Positions 6,950-27,456 are shown, counted from the stretch's first letter. The stretch is 37,380 nucleotides of DNA from an uncultured Bacteroidales bacterium (GCA_947367315.1 CANBDX010000021.1:1-37380), one strand, 5' to 3'. The notes: generated from the sequence alone by a model not told the origin. A program made the numbers and translations.

Positions 6950-6967
6950 GCTGTCTTGGTTTTTGTG

Positions 6968-6975
6968 CAAATTTA
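6968..6975 (-). promoter_or_regulatory. Candidate Bacteroidetes -7 box for the regulator gene (TAAATTTG on minus strand)
   Basis: CAAATTTA on plus = TAnnTTTG on minus, about 19 nt upstream of the preferred Met at 6949. Confidence 0.4.
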
Positions 6976-7079: not shown

Positions 7080-7109
7080 CGGTTGTAATAACACTTGACC
7101 CACCAACCA

Positions 7110-7979: not shown

Positions 7980-8840
7980 ATGAGAAGAAAAATTCTTTAT
8001 CTATTTTCTCTCTGTCTTTTCGTCCTTGCTTCTTGTGAAAAAGAGCCTGAAGTAAAGAACAACAGACATAATCTCGGCCCGAATGAGTTGAAGATTATGA
8101 GTTTCAACATGAGAGAGCCCGCTGATGGCGGAAAGGATGAATGGGCTGTGCGAGCGGGTGCAGTCATGGCAATGTTCGACGATCAGCAGGCTTCTTTGAT
8201 GGGTTTTCAGGAGGCCGGCCATGAGTCAATTAATCGCTATCTGAAGGCGATCATTCCAAGTCACGGCTATGTTTTTGTTGATGAACTGGAGAACAAGAAC
8301 TCAATGGCGTACAGGCCGGAGTTGTTGAAGGTTGTAAAGAAAGGTCTGATCTGGCTTACTGACACTCCAAGTGTACCTTCTTTGAGCACAAGCGGTTATG
8401 TGAGAACAGCACGATGGGTCATTTTTGAGATTGTTGCAACCGGAACACAGTTTTTCTACATCAACACTCACTTTGACTTGTCTTCGACTGACCAGAAAGC
8501 GAACCTCAGGTACATTAACAAGCTGATCGCCCAGCAGAACAAGGATAATCTACCTATGGTCATGACAGGTGACTTCAATGTAGAGTCTTACACATCTGTT
8601 TTTGATTCTATACAGGAAACAATGGTATCAACCCGTGATGTCGCCCCTGTCACAGATAGCCATATGACATATAATGCATGGGGTAACACTTCGAAGCAAA
8701 GAATCATTGACCACATCTTCATGAGCAAGGAACTCGAATGCTCTGAGTACAAGACTGTTACTCAGTCATATGAGAACCACTACTATGTTTCTGATCACTA
8801 TCCAGTATATTCTATTATAAACTTTGATACCCATGAATAA
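7980..8840 (+). CDS. EEP family hydrolase, lipoprotein (EEP-2)
   Basis: Lipobox LASC; MSFNMRE, GFQEA, INTHFD, TGDFNVE, IDHIF, SDHYP motifs. Confidence 0.88.
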   Translation: MRRKILYLFSLCLFVLASCEKEPEVKNNRHNLGPNELKIMSFNMREPADGGKDEWAVRAGAVMAMFDDQQASLMGFQEAGHESINRYLKAIIPSHGYVFVDELENKNSMAYRPELLKVVKKGLIWLTDTPSVPSLSTSGYVRTARWVIFEIVATGTQFFYINTHFDLSSTDQKANLRYINKLIAQQNKDNLPMVMTGDFNVESYTSVFDSIQETMVSTRDVAPVTDSHMTYNAWGNTSKQRIIDHIFMSKELECSEYKTVTQSYENHYYVSDHYPVYSIINFDTHE

Positions 8841-11800
8841 CTTTTTCAAATATTTTCTATTGGTTATCGGTCTCTGTCTTATCTCGTTGACTGCCGTAGC
8901 GCAGAATATGATAAATGTGACCGGTAAGGTAATGGATGAAAGTGGCGAACCTCTTCCGGGAGTCGCCGTGATTGTTTCTGGTACTTCAAATGCAACAATC
9001 ACTGATTTTGACGGTCTATATTCGATAAATGCAGCAACCGGTAGTTTATTGGAATTTTCATGTCTCGGTTATGAGACCAAATCTGTAACTATTGGTCAAC
9101 AGGCCATTATCAACATCACTCTCAAGGAGGAGTCTTTCGCTCTTGAGGAGACAATCGTTGTGGGTTACGGTACTCAGCGTAAGGTCGACCTTACAGGATC
9201 TGTAGAGCAGATCGGCAGCGATGTCTTTGCTTCAAGACCTAACTCGAATGTGACACAGATGCTTGAGGGTGCGATTCCGAACCTCAATATCTCACTTGCC
9301 GACGGTAAGCCTATCCGTTCTGCCGAATTCAATGTCCGTGGTACAACTTCTATCGGACAGGGTGGTAGCGCGCTAATCCTTATCGACGGTGTGGAGGGTG
9401 ATCCTGCAATGATCAACCCTGATGATATCGCGTCAGTTTCAGTATTGAAAGATGCTGCTTCATCAGCGATCTACGGTTCACGCGCTCCTTACGGCGTGGT
9501 CCTCATCACAACCAAGAATGCAAAGAAGGGTAAACCGGTTGTGTCATACTCAAATAACTTCACTTTCTCGAATCCCGCAACAGATCCTGAATATGTGACA
9601 GACGGTTTCCAGTGGGCATGCATGTTTTACGAGGCGTGGTGGAATGAGAACGGTAGCAACCCAACTCACGCAAACACTATTATCAACTTCACAAAGGACT
9701 GGCTGAGAGAGTATCGCTATCGTAAGGATACTAATCAGCTGGGAACAGTTATCAGCGACGGTTCGTGGAGGATTGATGCTGGTAATTATGCATACTTCAA
9801 CGAAGGAACTGACTGGTTTGGCATTCTTTATAAGGATAATGCTTTTGCCCAGACACACAATATCTCTGTATCTGGATCAACAGACAAGTTCGACTACTAT
9901 GTGTCGGGCCGTATGTATAACTTCTATGGTCTTTACGACTCAAAGACTAATACTGATGATTGCCAAAGCCAGAATATGAGAGTGAAGGTGGGTTACAAGG
10001 CGTATGACTGGCTGAGAATCTACAATAACTTCGAGCAGGGACACCGTAAGTACAATAACCCGTTCGTATCAAGTGGTGCAGCCGGTAATATCTGGGCAAA
10101 TCTGCAGACAACTGCATTCCCTTGCGTTCCTTTCTACAACCCAGATGGTACAATGACTAAGGCCGCTGCTTATTCTGTCGGAGGTTTCCTCTATGGCAGC
10201 AGTAAGAGTGTGTATGAAACTGACTATATTAAAAATACTATCGGATTCAACGCGACATTCCTTGACAATGCTCTTACAGTAAACGGAGATGCAACTTATA
10301 AGCTTGATGACTACAACGGAATGAAGCGAACATATCCGGATGCATATTCCCCAGCTCCTGGTGTTATGGAGACCAAACCTGGCGTCGTTTCATCAATTCT
10401 TCAGGACCATAGCGATAAGAAGTACATCAGCTTGAACTTCTTTGCTGATTACACCAAGACACTTGGTAAGCACTACATCAAGGGTATGGTCGGATATAAC
10501 TACGAGCAGCGTACATATTCTGTTCTTTCAGCTCAGAATACTGACATCCTTACAGAGGACGTTGAGAACATCAACCTTGCATTGGGTTCTGACAACAAGA
10601 CAATCTCCGGCAAGTATAATAAGTGGAGATCTGTAGGTGTATTCTCACGTATCAACTACAGCTACGATGACAGATACCTCTTCCAGTTCAACGGCCGTTA
10701 TGACGGATCCTCTAAGTTCCCTGCAAATGAGCGCTGGGCATTCTTCCCATCTGCATCAGGAGCGTGGAGACTTTCTGAGGAACCTTGGTTTGAGGATAAT
10801 GTGAGTGATAAGTGGGTGTCGAACATCAAGTTCAGACTCTCGTACGGATCACTTGGAAACAGTAATGTGGATCCATATTACTATGATGAGTCCTTTGCTA
10901 TCGGAAATAGCCGTCTTATCAACGGACAGAAATATAGAAAAACATCCGCTCCTGACCCGATTCCGGACAATCTTACTTGGGAGACATCTACAACTTATAA
11001 TGTCGGAATTGACCTTGGATTCTTTAATGATCGGTTGAGCATTACAGGTGATGCATATCTTCGTAAGACATACGATATGTTTACAGCAGGTCCTACAATT
11101 CAGTCAGTATATGGAGCAGAAGCACCTGAAGGAAACTATGCCGAGCTTTCTACTCGTGGATTCGAACTCTCTGTAACCTGGAAAGATGGATTCAAACTTG
11201 GTGGCAAACCGTTCAACTACAGCATCAAGGGTACTTTGGCCGACTATACTTCAACTATCGACAAGTACAACAATGCAACCGGATATATCGGTGGTGGAAA
11301 CCATCCTGAGTACTATGCCGGAATGACTGTCGGCGAGATCTGGGGATTCGTGTCAAACGGACTCTGGCAGTATCAGGAGGATATTGATGCTGCAAATGCA
11401 AAAGCGCAGGCTGCAGGTCAGTCAAGATATGACTCTATCCACCAGCAGACCAACAACTATGACCTTTATCCTGGTTCTGTGAAGATCGAGGACCTTAACG
11501 GAAACGGGTATATTGATCGTGGCGACCAGACTCTCAGCAATCCGGGAGACCGTACTATAATCGGTAACTCTGAACCTCGCTATATCTACAGTTTCACACT
11601 TTCTGCAGATTGGAACAATTTCTATGCTTCAATCTTCTTCCAGGGTGTTGGAAAGCAGGACTATACAACTGACGGAGACTCAGGTATGATCTGGGGACAG
11701 TATAACCGTGCTTACAACCAGATTCCTAAGTGGATTCTCGGAAATTATTGGACTGAAGAAAATCGTGATGCATACATGCCACGTTATAACGCCCATTCAG

Positions 11801-12114
11801 AGCCATTTGCTCAGCAGACACGTCGTGCCAATACGCGCTATATGCTTGATGTGTCGTATATCCGTCTCAAGAATATTCAGTTCGGTTACCATCTTCCTGA
11901 GAAATGGCTCAAGCCTCTCCATATTTCTAAGGCAAGCCTGTTCTTCTCTGGTGAGAACCTTTGGGACTGGTCACCAATGTACAAGTACATCAAGAATACT
12001 GTTAACGTACTTGCACTTGGAGATGACCCGGAGAACTCTGATACAACAGCTGGAACAGGTGGATGTTATCCTGTACTCAGCTCATACAGTTTTGGTGTGA
12101 GTCTAACCTTTTAA
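8833..12114 (+). CDS. SusC/RagA-type TonB-linked outer membrane protein
   Basis: CarboxypepD_reg-like N-terminus (GKVMDESGEPLPGVAVIVSGT), plug region EETIVVGYGTQRKVDLTGSV, C-terminal SYSFGVSLTF; ATG at 8833 overlaps the EEP-2 stop. Confidence 0.95.
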   Translation: MNNFFKYFLLVIGLCLISLTAVAQNMINVTGKVMDESGEPLPGVAVIVSGTSNATITDFDGLYSINAATGSLLEFSCLGYETKSVTIGQQAIINITLKEESFALEETIVVGYGTQRKVDLTGSVEQIGSDVFASRPNSNVTQMLEGAIPNLNISLADGKPIRSAEFNVRGTTSIGQGGSALILIDGVEGDPAMINPDDIASVSVLKDAASSAIYGSRAPYGVVLITTKNAKKGKPVVSYSNNFTFSNPATDPEYVTDGFQWACMFYEAWWNENGSNPTHANTIINFTKDWLREYRYRKDTNQLGTVISDGSWRIDAGNYAYFNEGTDWFGILYKDNAFAQTHNISVSGSTDKFDYYVSGRMYNFYGLYDSKTNTDDCQSQNMRVKVGYKAYDWLRIYNNFEQGHRKYNNPFVSSGAAGNIWANLQTTAFPCVPFYNPDGTMTKAAAYSVGGFLYGSSKSVYETDYIKNTIGFNATFLDNALTVNGDATYKLDDYNGMKRTYPDAYSPAPGVMETKPGVVSSILQDHSDKKYISLNFFADYTKTLGKHYIKGMVGYNYEQRTYSVLSAQNTDILTEDVENINLALGSDNKTISGKYNKWRSVGVFSRINYSYDDRYLFQFNGRYDGSSKFPANERWAFFPSASGAWRLSEEPWFEDNVSDKWVSNIKFRLSYGSLGNSNVDPYYYDESFAIGNSRLINGQKYRKTSAPDPIPDNLTWETSTTYNVGIDLGFFNDRLSITGDAYLRKTYDMFTAGPTIQSVYGAEAPEGNYAELSTRGFELSVTWKDGFKLGGKPFNYSIKGTLADYTSTIDKYNNATGYIGGGNHPEYYAGMTVGEIWGFVSNGLWQYQEDIDAANAKAQAAGQSRYDSIHQQTNNYDLYPGSVKIEDLNGNGYIDRGDQTLSNPGDRTIIGNSEPRYIYSFTLSADWNNFYASIFFQGVGKQDYTTDGDSGMIWGQYNRAYNQIPKWILGNYWTEENRDAYMPRYNAHSEPFAQQTRRANTRYMLDVSYIRLKNIQFGYHLPEKWLKPLHISKASLFFSGENLWDWSPMYKYIKNTVNVLALGDDPENSDTTAGTGGCYPVLSSYSFGVSLTF

Positions 12115-12129
12115 GACGGTTTAACGATT

Positions 12130-13914
12130 ATGAAGAAATTTATCAAAATATTTACTCTTATCTCAATGTCTGCCGCCGCTTTTGTAGGCTGCGACCTGAC
12201 TGAGACACAGAAGGCAACTGCCGACAAGGCCTTGATCTTTGGTAGTGAGACCGGTTTGAGAGCATATACCATGTCGTTCTATGGTATGCTCCCTTCCAGC
12301 GATAAGGCTCATAGGCAGGAAGGAATGGCAGATTATCTGGCAAAAACTTCATTTGAAGACTATGAACTTGGAATCATTACATCTGAGAACTGTGGAACAT
12401 GGGACTGGTCTGATATCCGTGAGGTGAATTATTTCCTCGACAATAATACCTACGAATCAGTCCCTGAGGATGTCCGTAATAACTATAGCGGTATAGCTCT
12501 CTTCTTCAGAGCAAAGCTTTACTACGATAAACTTGTTAATTTCGGAGAAGTTCCATGGATCGGCCGCGTCTTGAATCCTGGTGACCCTGAACTTACAGCA
12601 CCAAGAGAAAGCAGAGATGTGATCGTTCAGCATATCATTGATGATCTTGACCAAGCTTATGAGTGGATTAAGTCGGAATCATCTTCTGATAGTCAGGCAT
12701 GTCTTCTGAACAAGTATTGTGCTATGCTTCTCAAATCACGAGTTTGTCTGTTTGAGGCATCATGGCGTAAGTATCATGCAGGAACTGACTATGTGAAGAA
12801 CTGCAAGATTACTTCATCCGAGTTGTTCAATCTTGCAGCCCAGGCCGCTGAGGAAGTGATGAAAAGCGGCAAGTTCTCACTCAACACAGGAACTTACAAA
12901 GACGGTAGCGGACCTTACAGCGCACTCTTCTCAAGTGATGTAGTTCCAACAAATGAGGTTATGCTTGCTGTGGCTAACGACACTGAACTTAGCGCAGGTT
13001 TCGGTAACTACTATTTCAATGTTCAGGAAACCCGTCCGTCACTTACACGTGCTTTCATGAACTCATACCTTAATATCGACGGTACTCCGTATTCAGAAAA
13101 ACACTCAAACGGTGCTTACAAGACTTTCCAGGAGGAGACAACTGGCCGTGACCTTCGTCTGAATCAGACCATCAGAGCGTATGATTACAAACGCACAAAC
13201 GCAAGCGGTGCAAGCGAACTGACTGTACCGAACTTCAATTATAGCCTTACAGGTTATCATATCACTAAGTATACAATTCCTGACGCAGCGTACGATGTGT
13301 ATGGAGCAAACAATAACGATATCCCTGTAATGCGTTATGCTGAGGCTCTTTTGAACTATGCTGAGGCTAAGGCAGAGCTTGGCTCATTGACAGACAAGGA
13401 TTGGGAGAATACTATCGGTGCTCTCCGCGCAAGAGCAGGTATCACAGGAGGCCTTAAAACAAAGCCTACAACAGTTGACCAGACATTCAAGTCAACATAC
13501 TTCCCTAAGATCAGTGATCCTGTAATCCTTGAAATCCGCCGTGAGAGAGCGATTGAGCTCTGTCTTGAAGGATTCCGTATGAGGGACCTCAAAAGATGGG
13601 CACGTGCAGATCTTTGGCAGACAGCAAAATGGTATGGTGTGTTCATCCCTGGATATGACAAACTTATCGATATCAATGGAGATGGAACAAATGATGTTTA
13701 CTTCAACAATCCATACGTATCTAACGTGCCAGCGGGAATGGAGCAGTACGTGGTAGCATTGAACGCCAATGTCGAAACAGTTACTGTAAACGGAGGTTTC
13801 GTACTTAACTACACACTTAAAGGTCGTGTGTGGGATGAAAGGATGTATCTCGACCCTATCTGCAGCGATGATATCCTTATGAATCCAAATCTTACTCAAA
13901 ACCCAGGATACTAA
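12130..13914 (+). CDS. SusD/RagB-type outer membrane lipoprotein
   Basis: Lipobox FVGC; typical SusD C-terminal region (VMRYAEALLNYAEAKAELG, LEIRRERAIELCLEGFRMRDLKRWA). Confidence 0.95.
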   Translation: MKKFIKIFTLISMSAAAFVGCDLTETQKATADKALIFGSETGLRAYTMSFYGMLPSSDKAHRQEGMADYLAKTSFEDYELGIITSENCGTWDWSDIREVNYFLDNNTYESVPEDVRNNYSGIALFFRAKLYYDKLVNFGEVPWIGRVLNPGDPELTAPRESRDVIVQHIIDDLDQAYEWIKSESSSDSQACLLNKYCAMLLKSRVCLFEASWRKYHAGTDYVKNCKITSSELFNLAAQAAEEVMKSGKFSLNTGTYKDGSGPYSALFSSDVVPTNEVMLAVANDTELSAGFGNYYFNVQETRPSLTRAFMNSYLNIDGTPYSEKHSNGAYKTFQEETTGRDLRLNQTIRAYDYKRTNASGASELTVPNFNYSLTGYHITKYTIPDAAYDVYGANNNDIPVMRYAEALLNYAEAKAELGSLTDKDWENTIGALRARAGITGGLKTKPTTVDQTFKSTYFPKISDPVILEIRRERAIELCLEGFRMRDLKRWARADLWQTAKWYGVFIPGYDKLIDINGDGTNDVYFNNPYVSNVPAGMEQYVVALNANVETVTVNGGFVLNYTLKGRVWDERMYLDPICSDDILMNPNLTQNPGY

Positions 13915-13934: not shown

Positions 13935-16274
13935 ATGAAAGCACTAAAAAACATTCTTTGGTCAGTCGCATTAGTTTGTGCGCTGCCAATGTTCTTTGGC
14001 TGTAACAACGAGTTGGAACAGCCTCAGATCAAGGAGCTTGCTGCTCCTGTGGTAACGGCTTCTCTTGAGGGACTTAATGTAGAACTTGAGTGGGATGCCG
14101 TTGTAAACGCTATGTCTTATAAGGTAGAGTACAAGAAGTCGACTGAGACTGAGTTTACTGCTGCAGGATCTGTAAACTACAGCCCATGCGTTGTGGAAGG
14201 TCTTGAACTTGACAACGTCTATGAGTTCCGCGTGAAGGCGGTTAACGGTGAAACAGAGTCTGCATGGTCTGAACTTGTCTCTGTTGAGATCGTTAAGTTG
14301 CTTGATAAGCCGGCACCTACATTCAACACAAGTATCTCTTTCATCGAGGTTAAGTGGGAAGCTGTAGAGGGCGCTGAGTCTTATAGAGTAGAATATAAGG
14401 CTACAGAAGCAACTGAGTTTACTGAAGCATATAAAGGTAACGGCGAGGACACAGAATTCAAGGTGAAGATCGGAAATCTTGAGGGCAGCACATCATATGA
14501 TGTACGCGTTTCATGCCTTGCAGAGGGCTTCAGCGAGACATTTACTGATGTCTTTACAATCACTACAACTGCAGCCCCTTCAAATGTTATCAGATCCGCA
14601 GATGAGTTCATTGCATGGCTTAAGGTAATTGATGGTCTTAATGAGGAGACTGCAGCCCTTGGAACAGACATTGATATGGCTGGTAAGGACTTCACAAGTG
14701 CAACAGGTTTTGCTGGTACTCTTGAGGGTCAGGGCTATGCAATCAAGAACCTCAAGACTGACAAGCCGCTCTTTGAGAAGAACAGCGGTACAATCCGTGA
14801 CCTCGTAATCGATGAGTCTTGCGAGTTTACTGTAAAGAACCAGAAATTCGGTGCTCTTGTGGCAGATGACCTCTATGGTAAGTATATTTCAGTAGTCAAT
14901 AACTCTACCATTACTTTCAAGGCTACTGCCAATGTAACTGATTGGTATATCATTGGTGGTCTTGTTGGAGTCGCTAAGGGATCTAACTTCACAGATTGTG
15001 CAAACAATGGTACAATTCTTTTCGATGCAACAGGTTATACTCATATTGATACTTCTATAGGTGGTATTGCCGGTTTTGTTGATGCAAGAGAGGTAGGAGC
15101 TATCTTTACATCATGTGAGAATAATGGTCCTCTTTCGATCAAGGCGAAGTATGGCGTTCCTAGAACTACTTCATTCCTTGACTTTAACTCTGGTTGGGCA
15201 TGCGGTATCAGTATAGCTGGTATTGCTGGATCTGCATTTGGTGTTGACTACGGCGGAGAGGAAGTAAAATTCGAGTCTTGCTACAATAAGGTAGATGGTA
15301 AACTTTACCTCCTTCATACTGAAACTAACTCAGTACCAAGTGTAAATAGTACAGCAGCTTGTTCTCTCGCAGGTATTTTGGGAACAGGTGGTACTGGAAC
15401 ATTCAACAAATGTCAGAATCATGCACTTATTAAGGCAGACTGCCTTGTGGCAGGAACTGTAGACCCTGCTAATATGAAACTGCGTAATTACCTTCTTGGA
15501 GTTGGCGGTATTGCAGGATATGGATGGGATTCTTTCAAAGAAATAGCATCTTGTCAGAACCATGGTGATATTGAAGTAGAGTATTATGGTACTAATAACT
15601 CGTCATCAAATTATCGTGCTTCTGTTGGTGGCATCATCGCAAATACTTACAAGAATCCAAGTACTCCTGTCAATTATTGTAAGATGAAAGGTGATATTAC
15701 TGTTAAAGGTAATTCAAGTATTGCAGTCGGTGGAATCTCTGGATTCAATGGTAAGCAGATCAAGAATGAAGTGACATCAGATGTTACAATCAACGTGGTA
15801 GCTAATACATCATTTGTTGGAGGTCTGACTGGCTATATCGAGGGTTCTGCACATCTTCACCAGATCAAAGGCTGTACTTGTGCTGCAACAATCATTGCAG
15901 AAACAACTGATCCAGAAAACTCAAGCGTAACCAAGGGATATGCAGCAGCCGGTGGCTTGTTGGGAAGATGGGAAGGAAACAAGACAGAAGGAAGCCCATG
16001 CTTTATTGACTACGATGGTGATCCTTGCGTATTCAAGGGTTCTATCTCGTCAACCACTCTTGGACACGTTGGTCTAGTAATGGGCGTTTCTAACAATGCT
16101 AGTAATGCAAAGGTATTCGGATCTGTAGAAAGTCCTATCCAGATACTTAATACTGTTACTATCGCTAAGAAGGGAACAGAAGCAGTTGCGGTTACTTCTG
16201 CAAATGTCAAGGATCTTGCTATTGCACTTGATGCAGGAAATACAACTGTATATGTAACTTGTCCAAATAACTAA
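13935..16274 (+). CDS. Lipoprotein: two fibronectin type III domains plus GLUG-like repeat (beta-helix) module; probable surface glycan-binding protein
   Basis: Lipobox FFGC; FN3 patterns (NVELEWDAVVNAMSYKVEYKKS, SISFIEVKWEAVEGAESYRVEYKA); repeated GG(I/L)(A/V)G...C.N.G.I. Confidence 0.8.
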   Translation: MKALKNILWSVALVCALPMFFGCNNELEQPQIKELAAPVVTASLEGLNVELEWDAVVNAMSYKVEYKKSTETEFTAAGSVNYSPCVVEGLELDNVYEFRVKAVNGETESAWSELVSVEIVKLLDKPAPTFNTSISFIEVKWEAVEGAESYRVEYKATEATEFTEAYKGNGEDTEFKVKIGNLEGSTSYDVRVSCLAEGFSETFTDVFTITTTAAPSNVIRSADEFIAWLKVIDGLNEETAALGTDIDMAGKDFTSATGFAGTLEGQGYAIKNLKTDKPLFEKNSGTIRDLVIDESCEFTVKNQKFGALVADDLYGKYISVVNNSTITFKATANVTDWYIIGGLVGVAKGSNFTDCANNGTILFDATGYTHIDTSIGGIAGFVDAREVGAIFTSCENNGPLSIKAKYGVPRTTSFLDFNSGWACGISIAGIAGSAFGVDYGGEEVKFESCYNKVDGKLYLLHTETNSVPSVNSTAACSLAGILGTGGTGTFNKCQNHALIKADCLVAGTVDPANMKLRNYLLGVGGIAGYGWDSFKEIASCQNHGDIEVEYYGTNNSSSNYRASVGGIIANTYKNPSTPVNYCKMKGDITVKGNSSIAVGGISGFNGKQIKNEVTSDVTINVVANTSFVGGLTGYIEGSAHLHQIKGCTCAATIIAETTDPENSSVTKGYAAAGGLLGRWEGNKTEGSPCFIDYDGDPCVFKGSISSTTLGHVGLVMGVSNNASNAKVFGSVESPIQILNTVTIAKKGTEAVAVTSANVKDLAIALDAGNTTVYVTCPNN

Positions 16275-16286
16275 TAATTAACAATC

Positions 16287-19200
16287 ATGAAATTTAAATC
16301 GTATTCAATGATTAGCCTTCTATTTGCGGCAGCTCTTGCGAGCTGCTCGCAGGTAGATGAGCTGACTCCACCAGAGAATGAGTATGCGTACACATTCAGG
16401 GTGGCAGATGATGCTCTTACAAAGGCATCATACGGTGAGAATCATATTGTCTTTGAAAAAGATGATCTGGTTGCTTCTTATGCTTCTACTTCAGTCAATA
16501 AGTCTACACCTGTCGAGGTGGCAGAAGACGGAGAGAAGATTATCACAATCAGAAGCTCTGTAGCTCTTCAGGCAGGTGATAAGGTTTATGCTTATTACCC
16601 ATATTCATCAGCTAATGATAAAGCTGAGAAAACTGCAGTTTCTATGGAGATTCCAAGAAACCAGGTGAGCGGAGATGCTGACGCTATGCCGATGGTTGCT
16701 CTTCCATTCACTTTGACAGATGTTGTCAATAGCGATGAAGCTACTGAAGTCGGTACTCTTGAGTTCCTCAATCTTGGTTCAGTTATCAAACTTAACATCT
16801 ATTCTTCTGACAGCAAGTACCAGGGTGAGACTATCGAGAATGTAACATTCATCGAGGAGAAGCCGGTCGCTGGTTCGTTTACATATGACATTACTAGTGT
16901 CGATGTGGAAAATCCTGCTGCTATCTCAGGCTACACTGAGACTGATGTTGTGGTAACAGGTCGCGCTACAGTTGGTACAAGCGCTGATGATGCAGGTGTA
17001 TTCTATATGGTAGTCGCTCCTGGTAAGTACAAGGGTAAATTCGTTGTACGCACAAACAAGGCTGATTACACATATGATTCAAGCGCAAAGGAAAGAGAGT
17101 ACTCACGCGCAACCGTGAAGCCTCTCAATATCAACCTTGCAAGTACCAACTGGTTAGCAAACGACAAGTATGACACAAGCATTGATTCTCCTCGTGAGTT
17201 CGCTGCATTCTTGAAGGGTACATCTGCTGATGATACTGCAGAGTATACAATTTCTGCTGATCTTGATATGACAGGCTACACTATCACAAGTGCAAGCGGT
17301 TTCGGTGGTACTCTTGATGGTAAGGGACACTCTATCAGCAATCTCATTTCATCAGTACCACTCTTTACCGAGAACAAGGGTACACTCAGCAATATTACAC
17401 TCGATGAGTCTTGTGTGTTTACAGCAGGTAGCAATGTATTTGCACCATTTGTTAAGAATGACAATGCGGGTACATACAACTCTCTTGTAAATAAGGCATC
17501 AGTTACTTATAAGGCAACTGCTGATGTTGAAACATATGTAGTTATCGCGGGTCTTGTTGCCTATGTTGATGGTGCGACATTCAACAACTGCGAGAATCTT
17601 GGCGTTGTTACCTTCGATGCTACAGGAAAGACTCATCAGGCTACATCAGTAGGTGGTATTGCTGGCTTCATCAATTGTAGAAATTCAACGTCTACTTTCA
17701 ATAAATGTATCAATGATGGTCCTCTTACTATCAAGGCGAAGTATGGAAATCCTAGACCATGCTTCTATGACTATGCTTCAGGTGATGCAGTTGGTATAAA
17801 TATCGGTGGTATCGCAGGATGTGCTTATGGAGATGGCGGTGCGAGTGTAAATCATTATTTCAAAGAGTGTTATAATAATGAGAAAGGAGTTCTTTATCTT
17901 CTTCATACAGAAACTAATGCACTCACTTCTAAGAGCGAAACAGCATTCTGTTCTATAGCTGGTATTCTTGGAGCAGGATCATGCGGAGCAACCAGCAAGA
18001 CCGATAATTTCAACAAGTGTCGAAACTATGCTCTTCTCAAAGCTGACTGTCTTGTTACTGGTTCACCTTCAGCTTCAGCTATGAAATACCGTAACTACTT
18101 CCTTGCTGTTGCTGGTATCGCTGGATACTCATGGGATCACATGGGCGGTATGGCTTCTTGTCAGAATCATGGAAACATCGAAGTTGAATACCATGGTACA
18201 GATGACAGTAGTGGCGCTAGACGTGCATGTATCGGAGGTATTGCTGCAATGGCTTATAAGGGTACTGGTACATATGCAAACTACTGTAAGATGACAGGTG
18301 ATATTACTGTAAAGGGTAAAGGTTCACTAGCAGTCGGTGGTATCTTCGGATTCAACGGAAAGCAGATCAAGAACGAAGTTACTGCAGATTGTACTATTGA
18401 CGTAACAGGTCTTAAGTGTCATGTCGGAGGCCTTGTAGGATATTTGGATGGTAATGCTCAGTACAATCAGATTAAGGGATGTACTTGTGCTGCTACTGTT
18501 ATTTATAATACAACTGACGCAAGTGTAGACGGAGAATGGGCTTCACTAGGTGGTCTGATCGGACGTTGGGAAAGTCCAGCTACAGGAAATTATTCGAGTC
18601 TTATTAACTATAATGAGGATCCATGTAAGTTCTCAGGTTCTGTGTCTACAAGTAATTTGTCTGTGGCAGTCGGTGCTGTTATTGGAGTTTCAAATGACAG
18701 TAGTAAGGCAAAGACATTTGGATCAAGCTCATATCCTATTCAGGTATCAGGAACTCTTCAGAAAAAGGGAACAGAGAAGATTTATATCAATTCAACCAAT
18801 ATTGATACTTATGCAATCGGCAGGAATGAGGGAAATACTACAATTTATGTTGAAGCTACTCCTGCTTTCACTGTTATGAGCTTAAACCTTCGTGAGTCTA
18901 ACCTTACTACTCGTATGCCTGCAATCATTGAGATGATCAAGGGTGAGAAACCAGACATTCTTGGTCTTCAGGAGGTGAAGGTACTTGAGGGATGGGATGC
19001 ATTCTTTGAGTCAGATTCATGGAAGGAGGTCCTCAATGGTGTTGATGAGATGTATGACGGTTATCGTCCTACAGGTCAGACAAATGGTATTCTTTACAAT
19101 CCAGAGGTATTCGAGGCGTCTAATACTGGCTTCTTCTATCTAGGTGAAGATCACACTCTAAGTGGTACAGCAAACAGTTGGGATGATTATCAGAGAACAG

Positions 19201-19649
19201 CAGTTTATGCTACACTGCTGCACAAAGCATCAGGCAGGTATATCTTCTTTGTCAACACTCACTATCCACTGAATCTTGACGGTTGCAAGAAGTCCTCTGC
19301 TCTTGTCGAGGAGCGTATTGCTGCACTCAATGCAAATAAGTATCCTGTCATGGTGATCGGTGACTTCAACCAGGTGCTCAGCTCGGGAGCATTTGAAGCC
19401 TTCAAACAGTCAATGAGAGACGCAAGAACATATGCTGATAGTTACTACAGTGAAGATAACAAGAATCTCTACACCTATAATGCATTCGGTGATGCATCAG
19501 CAGTCCGCAATAAGGTAGATCACATCTGGTACTCTCATCCATCTCTTGATGCAAAGTACTATGAGACCCTTACTCAGGAAATCACAAAGTATGGTGAGGT
19601 AGATTATCTTTCAGACCATTATCCTATCTCAGCAGTAATCTCATTCTAA
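16287..19649 (+). CDS. Lipoprotein: fimbrillin-like N-terminus, GLUG-like repeat module, C-terminal EEP hydrolase domain (EEP-3)
   Basis: Lipobox LASC; fimbrillin-like region with VYAYYPYSS; GLUG-like repeats paralogous to the upstream gene; C-terminal MSLNLRES, GLQEV, VNTHYP, IGDFNQ, VDHIWYS, SDHYP. Confidence 0.85.
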   Translation: MKFKSYSMISLLFAAALASCSQVDELTPPENEYAYTFRVADDALTKASYGENHIVFEKDDLVASYASTSVNKSTPVEVAEDGEKIITIRSSVALQAGDKVYAYYPYSSANDKAEKTAVSMEIPRNQVSGDADAMPMVALPFTLTDVVNSDEATEVGTLEFLNLGSVIKLNIYSSDSKYQGETIENVTFIEEKPVAGSFTYDITSVDVENPAAISGYTETDVVVTGRATVGTSADDAGVFYMVVAPGKYKGKFVVRTNKADYTYDSSAKEREYSRATVKPLNINLASTNWLANDKYDTSIDSPREFAAFLKGTSADDTAEYTISADLDMTGYTITSASGFGGTLDGKGHSISNLISSVPLFTENKGTLSNITLDESCVFTAGSNVFAPFVKNDNAGTYNSLVNKASVTYKATADVETYVVIAGLVAYVDGATFNNCENLGVVTFDATGKTHQATSVGGIAGFINCRNSTSTFNKCINDGPLTIKAKYGNPRPCFYDYASGDAVGINIGGIAGCAYGDGGASVNHYFKECYNNEKGVLYLLHTETNALTSKSETAFCSIAGILGAGSCGATSKTDNFNKCRNYALLKADCLVTGSPSASAMKYRNYFLAVAGIAGYSWDHMGGMASCQNHGNIEVEYHGTDDSSGARRACIGGIAAMAYKGTGTYANYCKMTGDITVKGKGSLAVGGIFGFNGKQIKNEVTADCTIDVTGLKCHVGGLVGYLDGNAQYNQIKGCTCAATVIYNTTDASVDGEWASLGGLIGRWESPATGNYSSLINYNEDPCKFSGSVSTSNLSVAVGAVIGVSNDSSKAKTFGSSSYPIQVSGTLQKKGTEKIYINSTNIDTYAIGRNEGNTTIYVEATPAFTVMSLNLRESNLTTRMPAIIEMIKGEKPDILGLQEVKVLEGWDAFFESDSWKEVLNGVDEMYDGYRPTGQTNGILYNPEVFEASNTGFFYLGEDHTLSGTANSWDDYQRTAVYATLLHKASGRYIFFVNTHYPLNLDGCKKSSALVEERIAALNANKYPVMVIGDFNQVLSSGAFEAFKQSMRDARTYADSYYSEDNKNLYTYNAFGDASAVRNKVDHIWYSHPSLDAKYYETLTQEITKYGEVDYLSDHYPISAVISF

Positions 19650-19659
19650 GTCTACGATT

Positions 19660-19785
19660 ATGAAAAAGTATATTGAACCAAACACATTCGTTATAGATCT
19701 CGAATCCGCTCAGGTTCTATGCGCTTCATTCGATTCGCAAGACCACACTGAGAACTGGCAATTCGACGATACAGAAACTATCTAA
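19660..19785 (+). CDS. 41-aa peptide MKKYIEPNTFVIDLESAQVLCASFDSQDHTENWQFDDTETI, absent from the ORF track
   Basis: ATG 19660 to TAA 19783-19785, in the short gap between two large co-directional genes. Confidence 0.6.
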   Translation: MKKYIEPNTFVIDLESAQVLCASFDSQDHTENWQFDDTETI

Positions 19786-19803: not shown

Positions 19804-22800
19804 ATGTTTAAACACATATTAGTTGCACTTATTCTTCTGGGGGGAACTTTTTCTGCCCGTGCGGATGAGGAAAGGAATATCCTCCAGAAGACCTTACAGA
19901 ACGTAGATATAGCCCCATCTCTGGTGATGAACCAGGGGTGGGTGCCATATCCCGTTTATTCAGACAGAATAGGATGGAACTCACTTCTTGACGAGTTCGT
20001 GCCATCAATCATAGAGATGGGAGATAAGTATCTTGACTTCAAGTGGATCGAGATTACTGATGATGACTATCTTGCTTATGACCGTTTTGGAGATAGAGCG
20101 GTGATGGAGAATAAACTGATAGAAAATAGCTGCACTTTGGGCCGCCTCCTTATAGCTGAGTTGGCAGAAGGCAAGGGACGCTATCTTAATGATATCACCA
20201 AGGGAGTCGAATATTTCTGCAACTTGCGTTCTTGGGCGCTATCAGTCCATCTGGCAAAGTTTCAGAAGTCGATGAGTCCGCTTCCAGATCCGTCTGAAAA
20301 TATTCTGGCTTTATATCAGGGTAACAATTCGCAGTTGCTCTCATGGATATGGTATTTCTTGAGAGAAGAAATCACGAAGATTCAGCCAGGTCTTCCTGAA
20401 AGATTGAGAGCTCTTTTACAGGAAAGAGCCCTTGACCCATATCTTGAACGTGATGATTTCTGGTGGATGGGCTTTGATAAGACATCCAAAAGGAAGATCA
20501 ATAACTGGAATCCATGGTGCAATCAGAATCAATTGCTCTGCTTCATGCTGCTTGAAAACGATAGAGATATTCTTGCACAGGCAGTAGAGAAGTCAATGCT
20601 CTCGCTTGATAAATATCTCAATATAATAGCAGCTGATGGAGCATGTGATGAGGGCACAACTTATTGGTATAAATCCACTGCATATGTTATGGATTATGCC
20701 AAATATATGGATATGCTTACCCAAGGCAAGGTCGCATTCTTGCACAATGACCTGGTTAGGGGCCTAGGTGAGTATATCGTCAATGCAGACATAGGAGACA
20801 ATTGGCAGGTGAACTTCGCAGATGGTACACCGTCCCGTCGTCCTATATCATTTACAATCTATAGATATGGTAAGGCTGTTGGCAATGAACGTATGAAGTC
20901 ATTTGCCATCAATACTTATAAGCAATACGGTGCAGATCCGTTGGGAGCAGACTGGACTTTGTTCTATCAGGCTCTTGAAAATCTGCTTGCTGTCCGCGAG
21001 ATGAAGAATTCTGCTCCGGTGGATTATACACCATCTGACTTTGCCGTATATCCGGACAGTAAAGTGTGTTTCATGCGTTCAGGAAAAGCTTTCCTTGGAG
21101 CAAAAGGTGGAAACAATTTTGAGAACCACAATCATAATGATGTGGGTTCTTATGTTTATTTTTATGACTATAAACCGGTCCTCGTGGATGCTGGTGTGGG
21201 AGCTTACACCAGGGATACATTTGGACCGAACAGATATAAGAACTGGTTTGTAAACAGTGACTGGCATAACCTACCAAGCATAAACGGCTGTAAGCAGTCT
21301 TTTGGTAAGGAATATAAGTCCGGTCCGATGTCTGCAGATAAGCGCAGCCATAGTTTCGGGGTAGACATCGCAGGAGCTTATCCTGATGCAGCAAAAGTTG
21401 AGTCTTGGAATGTGAAGTATCGTCTTGATATGAAAGGCAATCTTGAGATGGTTCATACGTTTGAACTTGATAGCCTTGTAGCTGAGAACGTCCTTCATTT
21501 CCTTGCAGCCAATGAGCCTGTAATTGTTTCTAAAGGTAAGATCAACCTAGGAAACGGCATGGTGATGAATTATGATTCCAAGGACTTTACAGCAAGTGTT
21601 GAGGAGAAGAATCTTGTCGGACTTGATTTCAGCTACAGATGGGGTGACAATCTATATAGGATCAATCTCACTGCAAACAAACTTGAAAAGAAAGGGGAGT
21701 ACACCATCAACATAAGTTATCAGGGTGAGGAGACAATTGCTCAGATAGCCAAGAGAGTTGCAGATGTTGCCAAGGCTCAGTATCCTCTTCTTGAGGCAAG
21801 ACTTGGTAAGGGCATGACTCCGCGTGGAATCAATCAAGATGGTACCATGAAGGACAGGAATGTCGGATCGTGGACCAGCGGATTCTTCCCGGGCAACCTG
21901 TGGTATCTGTATATGCTTTCTCCAGATGCTGATGTCCTGGCGATGGCCGAGCGTCAGACTCATACCTTGGATTCTTTGTTGTCATTCCCACAGAGCCACG
22001 ACCTCGGATTTCAGGTGAACTGCAGCTATGGCAATGCATATAGAATTACTGGAAAACAGGAATATCTGTCTCATATTGAAAATGGTACAAGAGCTTTGGC
22101 AAGTCGTTATAATCCGAAAGCCGGGGTTACTTTGAGTTGGGAGCCGGGCCCTCAGGGCAAGTTCCCTGTCATCATTGATAATATGATGAATCTGGAGCTT
22201 CTGACTTATAGTGCCAGCCTTTTTGGTGCGGACTCTCTCGTAGATATGTCTGTCAAGCATGCTCAGACTACAATGAAGAACCATTTCAGAGACGATTATT
22301 CATGTTACCATCTTGTGGATTACGACCCTGAGACCGGTGAGGTTTTGAGAAAGGCTACCGTGCAGGGATATGCTGATGAAAGTGCTTGGTCTCGTGGTCA
22401 GGCCTGGGCTGTCTATGGCTACACAATGATGTTCCGTGAGACCGGCCGCAAGGAGTTTCTTACTCAGGCTGAGGCAATCGCAAAGATGCTTTTGAGCAGA
22501 CTCCCTTATGATGGAGTTCCTTTCTGGGACTTTGACGATCCGTCAATACCTTATACATATAAGGATGCATCAGCCGGAGCTGTCATGGCCTCTGCGTTCG
22601 TAGAGTTAAGCACTCTTACAAAGGATAAGAATCTATCTAAGAAATGCCTGGCAAAGGCCGAGAAGCAGATCCGTGCACTTGCATCCAAGGAATATCTCGC
22701 TCCGGTGGGTGAGAATGGAAACTTCCTCCTGATGCATAGTGTCGGCAACCTCAACAGTATGGCAGAGGTTGATTCTCCGCTCATCTATGCTGACTATTAT

Positions 22801-22836
22801 TTCCTTGAAGCGCTTTACCGATATATTAACTTATAA
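19804..22836 (+). CDS. Bifunctional heparinase II/III-like polysaccharide lyase plus GH88 unsaturated glucuronyl hydrolase
   Basis: Signal peptide; N-half NNWNPWCN, NHNHNDVGSYVYF, WHNLPSINGCKQSFG; C-half from ~21735: SWTSGFFPGNLWYLY, IIDNMMNLELL, DESAWSRGQAWAVYGY. Confidence 0.88.
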   Translation: MFKHILVALILLGGTFSARADEERNILQKTLQNVDIAPSLVMNQGWVPYPVYSDRIGWNSLLDEFVPSIIEMGDKYLDFKWIEITDDDYLAYDRFGDRAVMENKLIENSCTLGRLLIAELAEGKGRYLNDITKGVEYFCNLRSWALSVHLAKFQKSMSPLPDPSENILALYQGNNSQLLSWIWYFLREEITKIQPGLPERLRALLQERALDPYLERDDFWWMGFDKTSKRKINNWNPWCNQNQLLCFMLLENDRDILAQAVEKSMLSLDKYLNIIAADGACDEGTTYWYKSTAYVMDYAKYMDMLTQGKVAFLHNDLVRGLGEYIVNADIGDNWQVNFADGTPSRRPISFTIYRYGKAVGNERMKSFAINTYKQYGADPLGADWTLFYQALENLLAVREMKNSAPVDYTPSDFAVYPDSKVCFMRSGKAFLGAKGGNNFENHNHNDVGSYVYFYDYKPVLVDAGVGAYTRDTFGPNRYKNWFVNSDWHNLPSINGCKQSFGKEYKSGPMSADKRSHSFGVDIAGAYPDAAKVESWNVKYRLDMKGNLEMVHTFELDSLVAENVLHFLAANEPVIVSKGKINLGNGMVMNYDSKDFTASVEEKNLVGLDFSYRWGDNLYRINLTANKLEKKGEYTINISYQGEETIAQIAKRVADVAKAQYPLLEARLGKGMTPRGINQDGTMKDRNVGSWTSGFFPGNLWYLYMLSPDADVLAMAERQTHTLDSLLSFPQSHDLGFQVNCSYGNAYRITGKQEYLSHIENGTRALASRYNPKAGVTLSWEPGPQGKFPVIIDNMMNLELLTYSASLFGADSLVDMSVKHAQTTMKNHFRDDYSCYHLVDYDPETGEVLRKATVQGYADESAWSRGQAWAVYGYTMMFRETGRKEFLTQAEAIAKMLLSRLPYDGVPFWDFDDPSIPYTYKDASAGAVMASAFVELSTLTKDKNLSKKCLAKAEKQIRALASKEYLAPVGENGNFLLMHSVGNLNSMAEVDSPLIYADYYFLEALYRYINL

Positions 22837-22839
22837 TTT

Positions 22840-25800
22840 ATGAAGCAACTGAAACTAATTGCCCTGTTTATGCTGTTGTGTCCATACATTGCAATGGCAG
22901 ATGGCAAAGCCCCGATCGAAACACGCATACTCGAAGTGTCTGCAGATGACCTTTCGAGCGAGGCGGTATATCTCCGTCTCGAGGATGTGGATACGTTCTG
23001 TGATGTCAGCGTCAATGGACATTATGTCGGTTCTACAGCTAACAGATTCCGTCGTTATGAGTGGGACGTAAAGCAGTACCTTAAGGAGGGACAGAATACA
23101 CTCACAGGAGTCTTCCACGATGCTGAGGCAATCTGCAATGAGAGAAATGAGCAGTTGACTCTGCCTATCCCGATGAGTGGAATGGGCATGGTGCCGCATT
23201 TGAACCTTATCCGTAAGCCTGGCTATCATGGTGGCTGGGACTGGGGGCCGAAGTGCATGTATTCTGGTTTCTATGGCACAGTGGAACTCATTCCAGTGAA
23301 TACCGCCCGCATAGATTATCTTGAGTCTGTTCAGGATAATTCGGTCAAGGGACAGTGTACGCTTACTCTTAAAGCAGAGGTAACTTCTCCAAAGGGTGGA
23401 GAGACCGTGCTTGAGTTCAGCTGTGGCAAGAAGACCAAAAAGGTGAAGGTGAACTTGAAGGCTGGCAAGAACACAGTTTCAGAAACATTCGAAATCAAGA
23501 ATCCGAAACTCTGGTGGCCTGCTGGAATGGGCGAGCAGTACCTATATAATATAGGTGTAAAGGCAGACGGTCAGACCTTGAATAAAAAGGTCGGTATCCG
23601 TACAATCGAAATCGGAGAAAATCTTGCGTTCAAGGTAAACGGCAAGAAGATTTTCGCGGCTGGTGCTAACTGGATTCCATGTGACCTGGATGAGAATATG
23701 CACACTTACGAGCGCTATTATGATCTACTTGCTTCAGCAAAGGATGCCAATATGAATATGATCCGCCTTTGGGGAGGTGGAAAGTTTGAAAGGGATGCTT
23801 TCTATGAGATCTGCGACGAACTAGGTCTTCTTATCTGGCACGATTTCATGTTTGCATGTGCAGTGTATCCTACTGATGCAGACTTCCTGAATGAGGTTAC
23901 TGAGGAAATCACTCACCAGATCAAGCGTCTTCAGAGTCATCCGTCACTTGCAATGTGGTGCGGTGATAACGAGGGTATGGACAACAAGAACAAACGCGTT
24001 GTAAGACGCCACCCGGAGTATTATCACAACGAGTATAAGAGAATCATCGACCTCAAGGGTGACCTTGTTGCAACCCTTGATCCAGGACGCCTTTATTGGC
24101 CTACATCTCCTTGCGGAGGTCCTGGAGACTATGAGACAAACGGATGGAAGGATGATTCCAAGGGCGATATGCATCTTTGGGATGTATCTAAGTTTGTAAG
24201 ACCGCTTGCCGATTACTATAAGTTCAAGCCTCATTTCATGTCGGAATTCGGCCACTCATGCTTCTCAGGCAATCTTGAGACTTTGGAGCAGCAGAAGGAG
24301 AATATGCGTGAGAAAGGTGGATACGAGAATATCCAGGAGCGTATAAAGATGCATTTCAATCCAAAGTCTGGCTCTGCTGCAAATCTTGTATATCTCTCAC
24401 AGATGGAGCAGGCTCTCGGTCTTGAAACAGCGTCTTCATATTGGCGCTCACTCGACAAATGCAACGGAATTCTTATCTGGCAGCTGAACGACATCTGGGC
24501 AGGTTCTTCATGGGCTACTGTCGAGTATGACGGTACTTGGAAACCGGCACATTATCATGCAAAGAGGTTCTTCGCGCCTAAGGTTGTGACCGCTGTTCCT
24601 GAGGGAGACAGACTCCTGATTAAGGCTACAGACTCAGAACAGGCGCTTGTTACATTGTATTCTTATGACGGTACAAAGATCTGGACTAAGACAGATGCTG
24701 AGTTTGCACTGTCAGACTTCGGTACTCCAGAGGAAAGAGCAGGAAGATTCCTTCAAATTGAACTCACTTCTGATCCTTCGGTAACCAAGACATGGTTGTT
24801 TGAGGAACCTAAGAATTGTTCTATCCAGCAGGCAGATGTGAAATTTGCCGTTGCTGAACGCAAGGGTAAATGGGTAGTGTCATTGACTGCAGACAAACCT
24901 GCATTCTATGTGTGGGTGACTGCTCCTGGATTCAAGGGCCATTTCAGCGATAACAGCTTTACCCTTCTTCCTGGTCAGACCAAGGAGATAGAGTTCAATG
25001 GCAAGGGAGAGTTTTCTGATTTTGCCAAGGCATTGAAGGTTACTCATCTGTATAATGAGACTTCTCCTCGTTATGACGCTTTGCTTAAGGAGTGGAAGTT
25101 TACCCGTGAGGCATCGGAAGGTGCTCATCTGCGTGACTTTGACGATTCATCATGGGAAAAGGTTACTATTCCGCACGATTGGGCAATCTCAGGTCCGTTT
25201 GATCGCCAGAATGATATGTGGATGGAGAATGGGGTGGAAATGCCGGGTCGAACAGGATCTCTCCCGTGGACTGGTCTTGGCTGGTATCGCAGAGAGTTCA
25301 GTGCACCTGCCGGAAAGAAGGTTTTCCTTGTGTTCGACGGAGTCATGTGCAATGCACGGGTTTACGTAAACGGTAAGGAAGTCGGCTATTGGCCGCTCGG
25401 ATATGTGGCTAATCGTTTTGATGTTACTGATGTTGTCGAGCCAGGTAAATCAAATACGGTAGCTGTCAAGATTGAAAATGAACCGTATTCATCAAGATGG
25501 TATCCTGGCGCTGGACTTATCCGCAATGTGCATCTTGTTACTACTGATGAGGTGCATTTGCCAGATTGGGGACCTTTCATCTACACTCCTGAGGTGTCTG
25601 CCGAGCAGGCTAAGGTGAATGTGGGGATTGAAGTCGCAGGAGCTGAGAGCAAGAATGTCATCTGTCGCACAGCGATTCTTGATAAGGATGGATTCACTGT
25701 AGCAAGCGTGGAAACTCCGTTTAAGGGTGATAAGCTCGTTCAGGAACTTACAATGGCTAAGCCTAATCTTTGGAGTCCTAAGTCGCCTTATCTATATAAG

Positions 25801-27456
25801 ACTGTAGTTCAGGTGTTTGCTGACGACCGCATGGTTGATGAATATTCAAGCAATCTTGGTGTCCGCAAGGCAGAATTCATTGATGGAAAAGGCTTCTTCC
25901 TTAATGGCGAGATTACTAAGTTCAACGGCGTGAGCATGCATAGCGACCTCGGTCCTCTTGGTACTGCAATCAACAGAGCTGGTATCCGTCATCAGATCGA
26001 GATTCTTCAGGACATGGGATGTAACGCAATTCGTACTTCTCACAATCCTCCGGCTCCGGAGCTTGTAGAACTTTGTGATGAGATGGGAATAATGCTGATG
26101 ATTGAAATCCTTGACGAGTGGAATGCTGCAAAGGTAGGCAACGGTTATCACAAGTTCTTTAATGATTGGCATGAAAAGGACGTGGTGTCTGTAATGGAGC
26201 AGTTCCGTAACCATCCGAGTGTAATGATATGGAGCAATGGAAATGAGCCTTGTACGGTAAAGGAAGATCCCCAGGAAGGTCTGGCCGAAGCTCAATTGCT
26301 TTATCCGATCTGTAAGAGAGTCGACCCTACTCGTCCGGTGACTATGGGAAATCACTATTGGGCCCGCTACCTGGTGAAAGAGTGGCGTGATGCATTTGAT
26401 ATCGTCGGTGTCAATTATCATCCTGAAAGGTTTATTGAAATCCGTAAGGAAATGAGTGCAAATAAGGAGGATAAGCTTATCCTTACTACCGAGAGTGCAT
26501 CTACCCTCAGTTCCCGTGGAGTATATCATTTCCCTGTTGTCAAGGGACGCGAGTGGGAGGAAATTATTAAGCAGGATCAGCAGTGCACTTCCTATGATAT
26601 GATATGTGCGCCATGGTCTAATCTTCCGGATCTGGATTTTGCTGTGGTTGAGGATTATCCATGGGCAATAGGTCACTTTGTCTGGACTGGATTTGATTAT
26701 CTCGGCGAACCTACTCCTTATGGTGACGATTCTTGGCCGAATCATAGTTCTATGTTCGGATGTGTTGATCTGGCTTCTATTCCGAAGGACAGATTCTATC
26801 TGTACAGAAGTGTATGGAACAGGGATGAACATACGCTGCACGTGCTTCCTCATTGGAACTGGGAGGAGGGTCAGACTGTTCCGGTATATGTATATACCTC
26901 TTCACCTGCAGCAGAACTCTTCCTCAATGGAAAGAGTCTTGGTGTGCAGAAGAAGGTTGTGCCTACGGAGAAATTCGTCGGTGACAGAACTGCAGATGTA
27001 GAACCACGCTACCGTCTCAGATGGATGGATGTGAAGTATGAACCGGGTGAACTCATGGTTGTGGCCCTTGATGAGAACAATCAGCCTGTAGATACTGCTT
27101 ATGTACGTACGGCAGGCGAACCTGCAGGTATCCGTCTTGACTATGACGGACGTCGCATAAAGGCAGACGGTGATGATCTGGCATACGTGACTGTGAATAT
27201 AGTGGATGCTGACGGCAATGTATGCCCGTTGGCTGATAATGAGGTTACGTTTGAAGTGACAGGTACCGGATTCTTCAAGGCTTGCGCTAATGGTGACCCT
27301 ACCTGCATCGAGCCGTTCGCCGGGCCGTCAATGCATGCATTCAACGGAAAGCTTACCGCAATAGTTCAGGCAACCGAGCCTGCTGGAAAGATGTATCTCA
27401 AGGCGACTTCGCCAGGACTTAAGGAGGCGGTCTTGACTGTTCGTTCGCAATACTGA
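22840..27456 (+). CDS. Tandem GH2 fusion: beta-mannosidase-like GH2 plus beta-galactosidase-like GH2
   Basis: First half AGANWIPCD, MIRLWGGG, MWCGDNEG, FMSEFGHSCF; second half WEKVTIPHDWAISGPFD, WYRREF, RTSHNPPAPELVELCDEMG, MIWSNGNEP, TTESASTLSSRG. Confidence 0.9.
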   Translation: MKQLKLIALFMLLCPYIAMADGKAPIETRILEVSADDLSSEAVYLRLEDVDTFCDVSVNGHYVGSTANRFRRYEWDVKQYLKEGQNTLTGVFHDAEAICNERNEQLTLPIPMSGMGMVPHLNLIRKPGYHGGWDWGPKCMYSGFYGTVELIPVNTARIDYLESVQDNSVKGQCTLTLKAEVTSPKGGETVLEFSCGKKTKKVKVNLKAGKNTVSETFEIKNPKLWWPAGMGEQYLYNIGVKADGQTLNKKVGIRTIEIGENLAFKVNGKKIFAAGANWIPCDLDENMHTYERYYDLLASAKDANMNMIRLWGGGKFERDAFYEICDELGLLIWHDFMFACAVYPTDADFLNEVTEEITHQIKRLQSHPSLAMWCGDNEGMDNKNKRVVRRHPEYYHNEYKRIIDLKGDLVATLDPGRLYWPTSPCGGPGDYETNGWKDDSKGDMHLWDVSKFVRPLADYYKFKPHFMSEFGHSCFSGNLETLEQQKENMREKGGYENIQERIKMHFNPKSGSAANLVYLSQMEQALGLETASSYWRSLDKCNGILIWQLNDIWAGSSWATVEYDGTWKPAHYHAKRFFAPKVVTAVPEGDRLLIKATDSEQALVTLYSYDGTKIWTKTDAEFALSDFGTPEERAGRFLQIELTSDPSVTKTWLFEEPKNCSIQQADVKFAVAERKGKWVVSLTADKPAFYVWVTAPGFKGHFSDNSFTLLPGQTKEIEFNGKGEFSDFAKALKVTHLYNETSPRYDALLKEWKFTREASEGAHLRDFDDSSWEKVTIPHDWAISGPFDRQNDMWMENGVEMPGRTGSLPWTGLGWYRREFSAPAGKKVFLVFDGVMCNARVYVNGKEVGYWPLGYVANRFDVTDVVEPGKSNTVAVKIENEPYSSRWYPGAGLIRNVHLVTTDEVHLPDWGPFIYTPEVSAEQAKVNVGIEVAGAESKNVICRTAILDKDGFTVASVETPFKGDKLVQELTMAKPNLWSPKSPYLYKTVVQVFADDRMVDEYSSNLGVRKAEFIDGKGFFLNGEITKFNGVSMHSDLGPLGTAINRAGIRHQIEILQDMGCNAIRTSHNPPAPELVELCDEMGIMLMIEILDEWNAAKVGNGYHKFFNDWHEKDVVSVMEQFRNHPSVMIWSNGNEPCTVKEDPQEGLAEAQLLYPICKRVDPTRPVTMGNHYWARYLVKEWRDAFDIVGVNYHPERFIEIRKEMSANKEDKLILTTESASTLSSRGVYHFPVVKGREWEEIIKQDQQCTSYDMICAPWSNLPDLDFAVVEDYPWAIGHFVWTGFDYLGEPTPYGDDSWPNHSSMFGCVDLASIPKDRFYLYRSVWNRDEHTLHVLPHWNWEEGQTVPVYVYTSSPAAELFLNGKSLGVQKKVVPTEKFVGDRTADVEPRYRLRWMDVKYEPGELMVVALDENNQPVDTAYVRTAGEPAGIRLDYDGRRIKADGDDLAYVTVNIVDADGNVCPLADNEVTFEVTGTGFFKACANGDPTCIEPFAGPSMHAFNGKLTAIVQATEPAGKMYLKATSPGLKEAVLTVRSQY

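Follow-up and report, generated by a model that had tools for sequence, protein, structure and literature searches.

Classical surface glycan-binding proteins (SGBPs) of polysaccharide utilization loci (PULs) carry Ig/CBM-like domains. Phosphorylated glycans are common on microbes, and few glycan-harvesting loci are known to handle the phosphate. Among PDB entries with a named function, the nearest relative of the protein described here is BT3783 (PDB 4c1r), an EEP (DNase I-like) phosphoesterase deposited as a mannosyl-6-phosphatase, an activity that we take from the title of the PDB entry. Proteins joining DUF1735 to GLUG repeats are on record in PULs in 32 cases (PMC11216935), and nucleic-acid targets have been proposed for SusC/D loci that have phosphodiesterases but no CAZymes (PMC6499787). 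Our literature search for EEPs in SusCD loci found little; in the literature searched, we found no description of the fusion reported here, of its conservation or of its pairing with two other EEPs in one locus.

The stretch of DNA that we analysed (the window; 37,380 nucleotides from an uncultured Bacteroidales bacterium) encodes a protein in which a fimbrillin-like module, a GLUG-type solenoid and an EEP domain are fused. As judged from the genes around it, the fused gene is part of a SusCD polysaccharide utilization locus, where it encodes the second predicted lipoprotein after the SusC-SusD pair:

4214..6970, minus strand: hybrid two-component-type regulator (HTCS; Reg_prop, Y_Y_Y, AraC HTH)
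7095..7955, plus strand: EEP1, a free-standing EEP lipoprotein (PF03372, E 2e-14; lipobox LSSC)
7980..8840, plus strand: EEP2, a free-standing EEP lipoprotein (PF03372, E 3.9e-10; lipobox LASC)
8824..12114, plus strand: SusC-like TonB-dependent transporter (PF07715, PF13715, PF00593)
12130..13914, plus strand: SusD-like lipoprotein (PF07980, E 1.4e-41)
13935..16274, plus strand: Fn3-solenoid protein, a paralogous lipoprotein with two Fn3 domains and the same solenoid (53% identical), without EEP
16287..16346, plus strand: signal peptide II of the fused protein, lipobox LASC with C20 (sequence, orthologue alignment and N-termini of further loci)
16374..17156, plus strand: fimbrillin-like (Mfa_like_1-type) module, residues ~30-290 (PF13149 in homologues)
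17172..18860, plus strand: GLUG-type beta-solenoid, residues ~296-858 (AlphaFold2 model, fold match, GLUG in homologues, repeat count)
18864..19646, plus strand: EEP (DNase I-like) phosphoesterase domain, residues ~860-1120 (PF03372, active-site residues, PDB neighbours)
19660..19785, plus strand: conserved small ORF of 41 aa with a CASFD..NTE motif
19804..22836, plus strand: PL33-type lyase fused to a GH88 unsaturated glucuronyl hydrolase (8r73, E 1e-152; 3wiw, E 1e-101)
22840..27456, plus strand: double GH2 of 1538 aa, with a beta-mannosidase-like and a GalB-like half
28118..30307, plus strand: GH78 alpha-L-rhamnosidase-like lipoprotein (PF17389, E 8e-34; 2okx; N-terminus LIAGC)
30291..31367, plus strand: GxDLY/GDSL esterase
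31397..32062, plus strand: GDSL acylhydrolase with a probable lipobox
31950..33251, plus strand: PHP/CehA-type metallohydrolase (weak family matches only)
34745..36172, plus strand: SASA-type carbohydrate acetylesterase (PF03629, E 9e-16)

The lyase is assigned to PL33 on the strength of its match to 8r73, a structure from a study of that family (PMC11848413). A DUF2490 protein is encoded between the double GH2 and GH78, and a rhamnulokinase between the PHP/CehA-type protein, possibly a further phosphoesterase, and the SASA esterase. The small ORF between the fused gene and PL33-GH88 reads MKKYIEPNTFVIDLESAQVLCASFDSQDHTENWQFDDTETI; ORFs of 40-44 aa with a similar CASFD..NTE-like motif occupy the equivalent place in all ten loci examined, the window included. 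In the window, EEP1, EEP2, the fused protein and the Fn3-solenoid protein each have a lipobox, as do most of the examined orthologues; the window's PL33-GH88 and GH2-GH2 proteins have none. Judging by the enzyme families, the sugars handled are suggested to include uronic acid, rhamnose and Gal/Man-type beta-linked hexoses, with O-acetyl groups. Our guess is that the glycan resembles a gellan-like microbial exopolysaccharide more than a glycosaminoglycan, and to our knowledge phosphate has no place in a gellan-like exopolysaccharide.

The arrangement is not peculiar to one contig. Orthologous loci repeat the order HTCS-EEP1-EEP2-SusC-SusD-(Fn3-solenoid)-(fused protein)-PL33.GH88, differing slightly in gene order and in the number of copies. 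They keep the PL33-GH88 fusion, and most encode SASA, GDSL and GH2 enzymes within reach of the fetched stretches. Those of the records that are titled come from rumen or reticulum metagenomes (sheep, water buffalo), the RUG series and one UBA assembly.

Positions 16287-19649 translate as a single uninterrupted frame of 1120 aa. The initial annotation, made from the sequence alone, had described a single 1120-aa lipoprotein with a fimbrillin-like N-terminus, a ~560-aa GLUG-like repeat module and a complete EEP catalytic domain; the frame coincides exactly with one ORF whose lipobox cysteine is C20, and the three-module layout stands. Pfam matches only the C-terminal EEP domain of the protein itself. 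The annotation had further claimed that no characterised protein has this architecture and had proposed an architecture search as a check: Pfam and NCBIfam hold no annotated architecture of such kind, and the full-length relatives found with the profile come from the window's genus only, so the claim is uncontradicted. A full-length AlphaFold2 model, built from 7 sequences, was poor overall (pLDDT 62.7) and served for the EEP fold match only.

C20 is invariant in all seven aligned orthologues. It is followed by an acidic stretch, SQVDE in the fused protein and QKEE-like in its orthologues. QKDDE is an export motif in Capnocytophaga canimorsus, where the optimum is C-X-K-(D/E)2 (PMC5080379); the orthologues' QKEE resembles it, but stands one position off that optimum. 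Lipoboxes together with this suggestive export signal make surface exposure of the fused protein likely. Support for the fimbrillin-like reading of the module behind the anchor comes from its homologues: PF13149 (Mfa_like_1) is matched by 10 of the 33 members of its alignment (best E 7.9e-6), but not, in the Pfam scan, by the fused protein itself. A PDB search with the module's profile gave no match, and a structure-based fimbrillin assignment was dropped. No pilus genes are annotated among the scanned ORFs of the window. In one homologue (L071:3846-6329) the module shares a chain with a DNA/RNA non-specific endonuclease, and an Endonuclease_NS match occurs in 5 of the 19 other homologues scanned.

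Modelled by AlphaFold2 from a 35-sequence alignment, a check that the initial annotation had proposed, the GLUG-like module is confidently predicted to fold as one solenoid (pLDDT 92.3, pTM 0.93). Its sequence contains eight [VI]GG[IL]xG-type repeats against a mean of 0.14 in shuffled sequences (0/2000 shuffles as high), and three C.N.G motifs (1/2000 shuffles as high). GLUG (PF07581) is not matched by the fused protein itself at E<=1, and is matched by 4 of 13 solenoid homologues (best E 7e-10); together with the repeats and the model, this bears out a GLUG-like module. By fold, the closest PDB entry is 3n6z, from Bacteroides ovatus and putatively an IgA1 protease (E 3.7e-3, prob 1.00, TM 0.33/0.52); the match is one of fold only and of moderate size, and a Gemella IgA1 protease is among the next. 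Against PDB sequences, the solenoid profile found nothing significant.

The same solenoid family recurs beside phosphoesterases. In 5 of the 13 homologues it is fused to a calcineurin-like phosphoesterase; the solenoid relatives at L068:1728-5588, L070:483-4490 and L123:968-4834 carry such an enzyme at the C-terminus (MetallophosN/Metallophos/MetallophosC). In two related SusCD loci (L182:13656-16569 and L183:11048-15118) the solenoid protein, headed by BACON or otherwise, and an EEP come from two adjoining genes, and another EEP-bearing protein is encoded immediately upstream of SusC. Going by these predicted domains, the solenoid has three links to phosphoesterases: fusion to an EEP, adjacency to one and fusion to a calcineurin-like enzyme. 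Its repeated pairing with two unrelated phosphoesterase superfamilies suggests a function for the putative binding module.

The catalytic domain is complete, as had been claimed. PF03372 (Exo_endo_phos) is matched over its whole model at residues 864-1111 (E 2.3e-13; 50.9 bits against a cut-off of 24.5), and the EEP active-site residues N867, E896, Y937, H992, D1026, N1028, D1078, D1110 and H1111 are all present. No fused copy compared has lost any of these nine, and free EEPs largely retain them. Three PDB neighbours, 3g6s, 4c1r and 3mpr, are about equally close by sequence, so the likeness to BT3783 (4c1r: phmmer E 1.8e-10; Foldseek rank 6, E 4.5e-10) is of superfamily level only. In NCBIfam, exodeoxyribonuclease III and MnuA are weakly similar, with scores that fall far short of the cut-offs. 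Within the window's genus, we also observed EEPs fused to GH97+GDSL, GH13, GH78, SASA and GDPD (L058, L060, L061, L062 and L063). A sequence search also turned up an EEP of Bacteroides finegoldii whose gene has GH92 on one side and GH76/GH125/GH130 genes on the other; glycan loci with an EEP are thus nothing exceptional.

When 400 sampled genomes of the genus were searched with a profile of the full protein, 11, the window's included, contained the unbroken fusion, one of them in two copies. These 11 genomes come from several separate assemblies, and the fusion stands at the same place within the same locus. Seven fused orthologues align end to end with the window's protein at 46-55% identity. 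Full-length matches were confined to the window's genus in a profile search of 393 genomes from 206 genera of the order, as were matches among 300 genomes from 26 genera of the family. A tree built from 54 EEP domains sets the fused EEPs apart as one side of a branch (support 80/96, 82% of bootstrap trees), and EEP1 and EEP2 fall in two other groups, each its own clade; this pattern fits a single fusion event. A mobile or phage origin was rejected, as phage and plasmid records gave no protein-level match spanning most of the gene.

Two orthologous loci hold second copies of a different make-up: that of L044 lacks the EEP (892 aa), and that of L050 lacks the fimbrillin-like part, its lipobox, solenoid and EEP being present. 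At the level of predicted domains, these copies show modules shuffled at the same boundaries. In L051 (6165-9589), and also in L137, the fused gene appears split into two frames, a fimbrillin part and a solenoid-EEP part, the latter lacking a lipobox. The split is probably a frameshift of assembly or strain, and we did not use it as a natural variant.

We propose that the fused protein is a surface glycan-binding lipoprotein whose phosphoesterase head would remove or cut phosphate esters on the glycan of the locus before or during import, a reading to which we give slightly more than an even chance. Anchored by its predicted lipid, the protein would use the fimbrillin-like module as a spacer or anchor, and the solenoid, to judge from its fold and the position of its gene, would hold the glycan near SusCD. 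The EEP, with its active site intact, would hydrolyse a phosphate monoester or diester on the glycan; SusCD would then take the glycan up, and periplasmic PL33-GH88, GH2s, GH78 and acetylesterases, going by their families, would finish it. The proposal draws on the synteny of the locus, the intact EEP residues, the pairings of solenoid with phosphoesterase, the fusions of EEPs to glycoside hydrolases, the Bacteroides finegoldii EEP with its glycoside hydrolase neighbours, the likeness to 4c1r and the lipoboxes; the case for a glycan phosphoesterase is one of guilt by association. The initial annotation had suggested a surface-displayed catalytic adhesin or glycan-binding protein. A probable glycan-binding and catalytic role is retained, and the adhesin is not, since a PUL that has SusC-SusD and encodes two more EEP lipoproteins, together with a lipoprotein bearing the paralogous solenoid, fits a glycan-foraging enzyme better.

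Four points count against the proposal. We know of no phosphate-bearing substrate that specifically fits PL33, GH88, GH2 and GH78 together. The fusions of the fimbrillin-like module to Endonuclease_NS would suit a target of nucleic acid, and the stretch behind the lipobox cysteine is no more than QKEE-like and off the C. canimorsus optimum by one position. In addition, the free-standing EEPs of the genus mostly lie away from SusC: 6 of 20 have it as a neighbour, compared with 0 of 20 random stretches (one-sided p 0.01), and with 6 of 20 only we refrain from generalising that SusCD loci are where the EEPs of this genus belong.

A bolder version is rather unlikely, namely that the glycan chain or its side chains are joined by phosphodiesters and that the EEPs are its surface depolymerases. 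The solenoid would bind the polymer and the EEP would cut phosphodiesters, leaving fragments that fit SusCD. Among the lipoproteins of the locus we see no canonical endo-glycanase, and its lipobox-bearing catalytic proteins are the three EEPs, GH78 and a GDSL esterase. If this version is true, a phosphodiesterase takes the surface step in place of a glycoside hydrolase or lyase.

Among explanations that leave the glycan phosphate aside, an extracellular nuclease or phosphate scavenger, its EEP cutting nucleic acids or other organic phosphodiesters and its solenoid binding DNA or matrix, strikes us as improbable. DNase I-like nucleases belong to the EEP fold, to which the sub-cut-off NCBIfam similarities add, and there is the published proposal for CAZyme-free SusC/D loci with phosphodiesterases. 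The present locus, however, is rich in carbohydrate enzymes (PL33-GH88, GH2-GH2, GH78, esterases), and related EEPs are fused to glycoside hydrolases. The Endonuclease_NS fusions of the fimbrillin-like module do speak for a nucleic-acid role.

We think it quite improbable that the EEP is inactive or a binding module and the protein purely an adhesin or glycan-binding protein. The EEP-less Fn3-solenoid paralogue next door and the EEP-less copy in L044 indicate that binding alone is useful, but the conservation of all nine EEP residues in every fused copy speaks against a dead domain. Equally improbable, in our estimate, is that the EEP removes a surface decoration unrelated to the glycan, such as phospholipid, lipopolysaccharide or glycolipid phosphates met in foraging. 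Lipid phosphoesterases do occur among EEP relatives, and one EEP of the genus is fused to GDPD; that the protein is conserved together with the glycan enzymes of a single locus argues otherwise. Finally, the joining of two separate genes at ~18860, whether by chance or by faulty assembly, the latter raised by the initial annotation, has a negligible probability and can be set aside: the same junction recurs in 11 genomes from several assemblies, the frame is intact and the G+C content (0.44/0.41/0.43) shows no composition break.

On the preferred reading, that of a surface glycan-binding phosphoesterase, the locus suggests feeding on a phosphate-bearing glycan. Three surface-type EEPs in a conserved locus, with a probable binding rod attached to one of them, point to a phosphorylated glycan in the rumen.

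Set beside the described systems, the fused protein shares its EEP fold and active-site residues with BT3783 (4c1r), 3g6s and 3mpr. In contrast to 4c1r, a single-domain EEP, it carries its EEP in one chain with a fimbrillin-like anchor and a solenoid. The BT3783-type mannan-locus context of GH92/GH76/GH125 is replaced by PL33/GH88/GH2/GH78, with no Pfam or NCBIfam match to GH92, GH76 or GH125 among the scanned locus proteins. With GLUG-repeat solenoids (PF07581; the IgA1-protease-like 3n6z) it has the fold and repeat pattern in common; unlike 3n6z, it has no protease domain and ends in an EEP. The calcineurin-like solenoid proteins of L068, L070 and L123 likewise place a C-terminal phosphoesterase behind a solenoid of the same family, but theirs is a Metallophos domain, from a superfamily unrelated to EEP, and their N-terminus differs. 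SGBPs at the SusE/SusF position resemble the fused protein in being lipoproteins encoded directly after SusC-SusD, with an N-terminus like a spacer and a large domain that probably serves binding. Unlike classical SGBPs, the fused protein has a predicted phosphoesterase domain, and a solenoid takes the place of Ig/CBM-like domains: it is a new architecture assembled from known parts.
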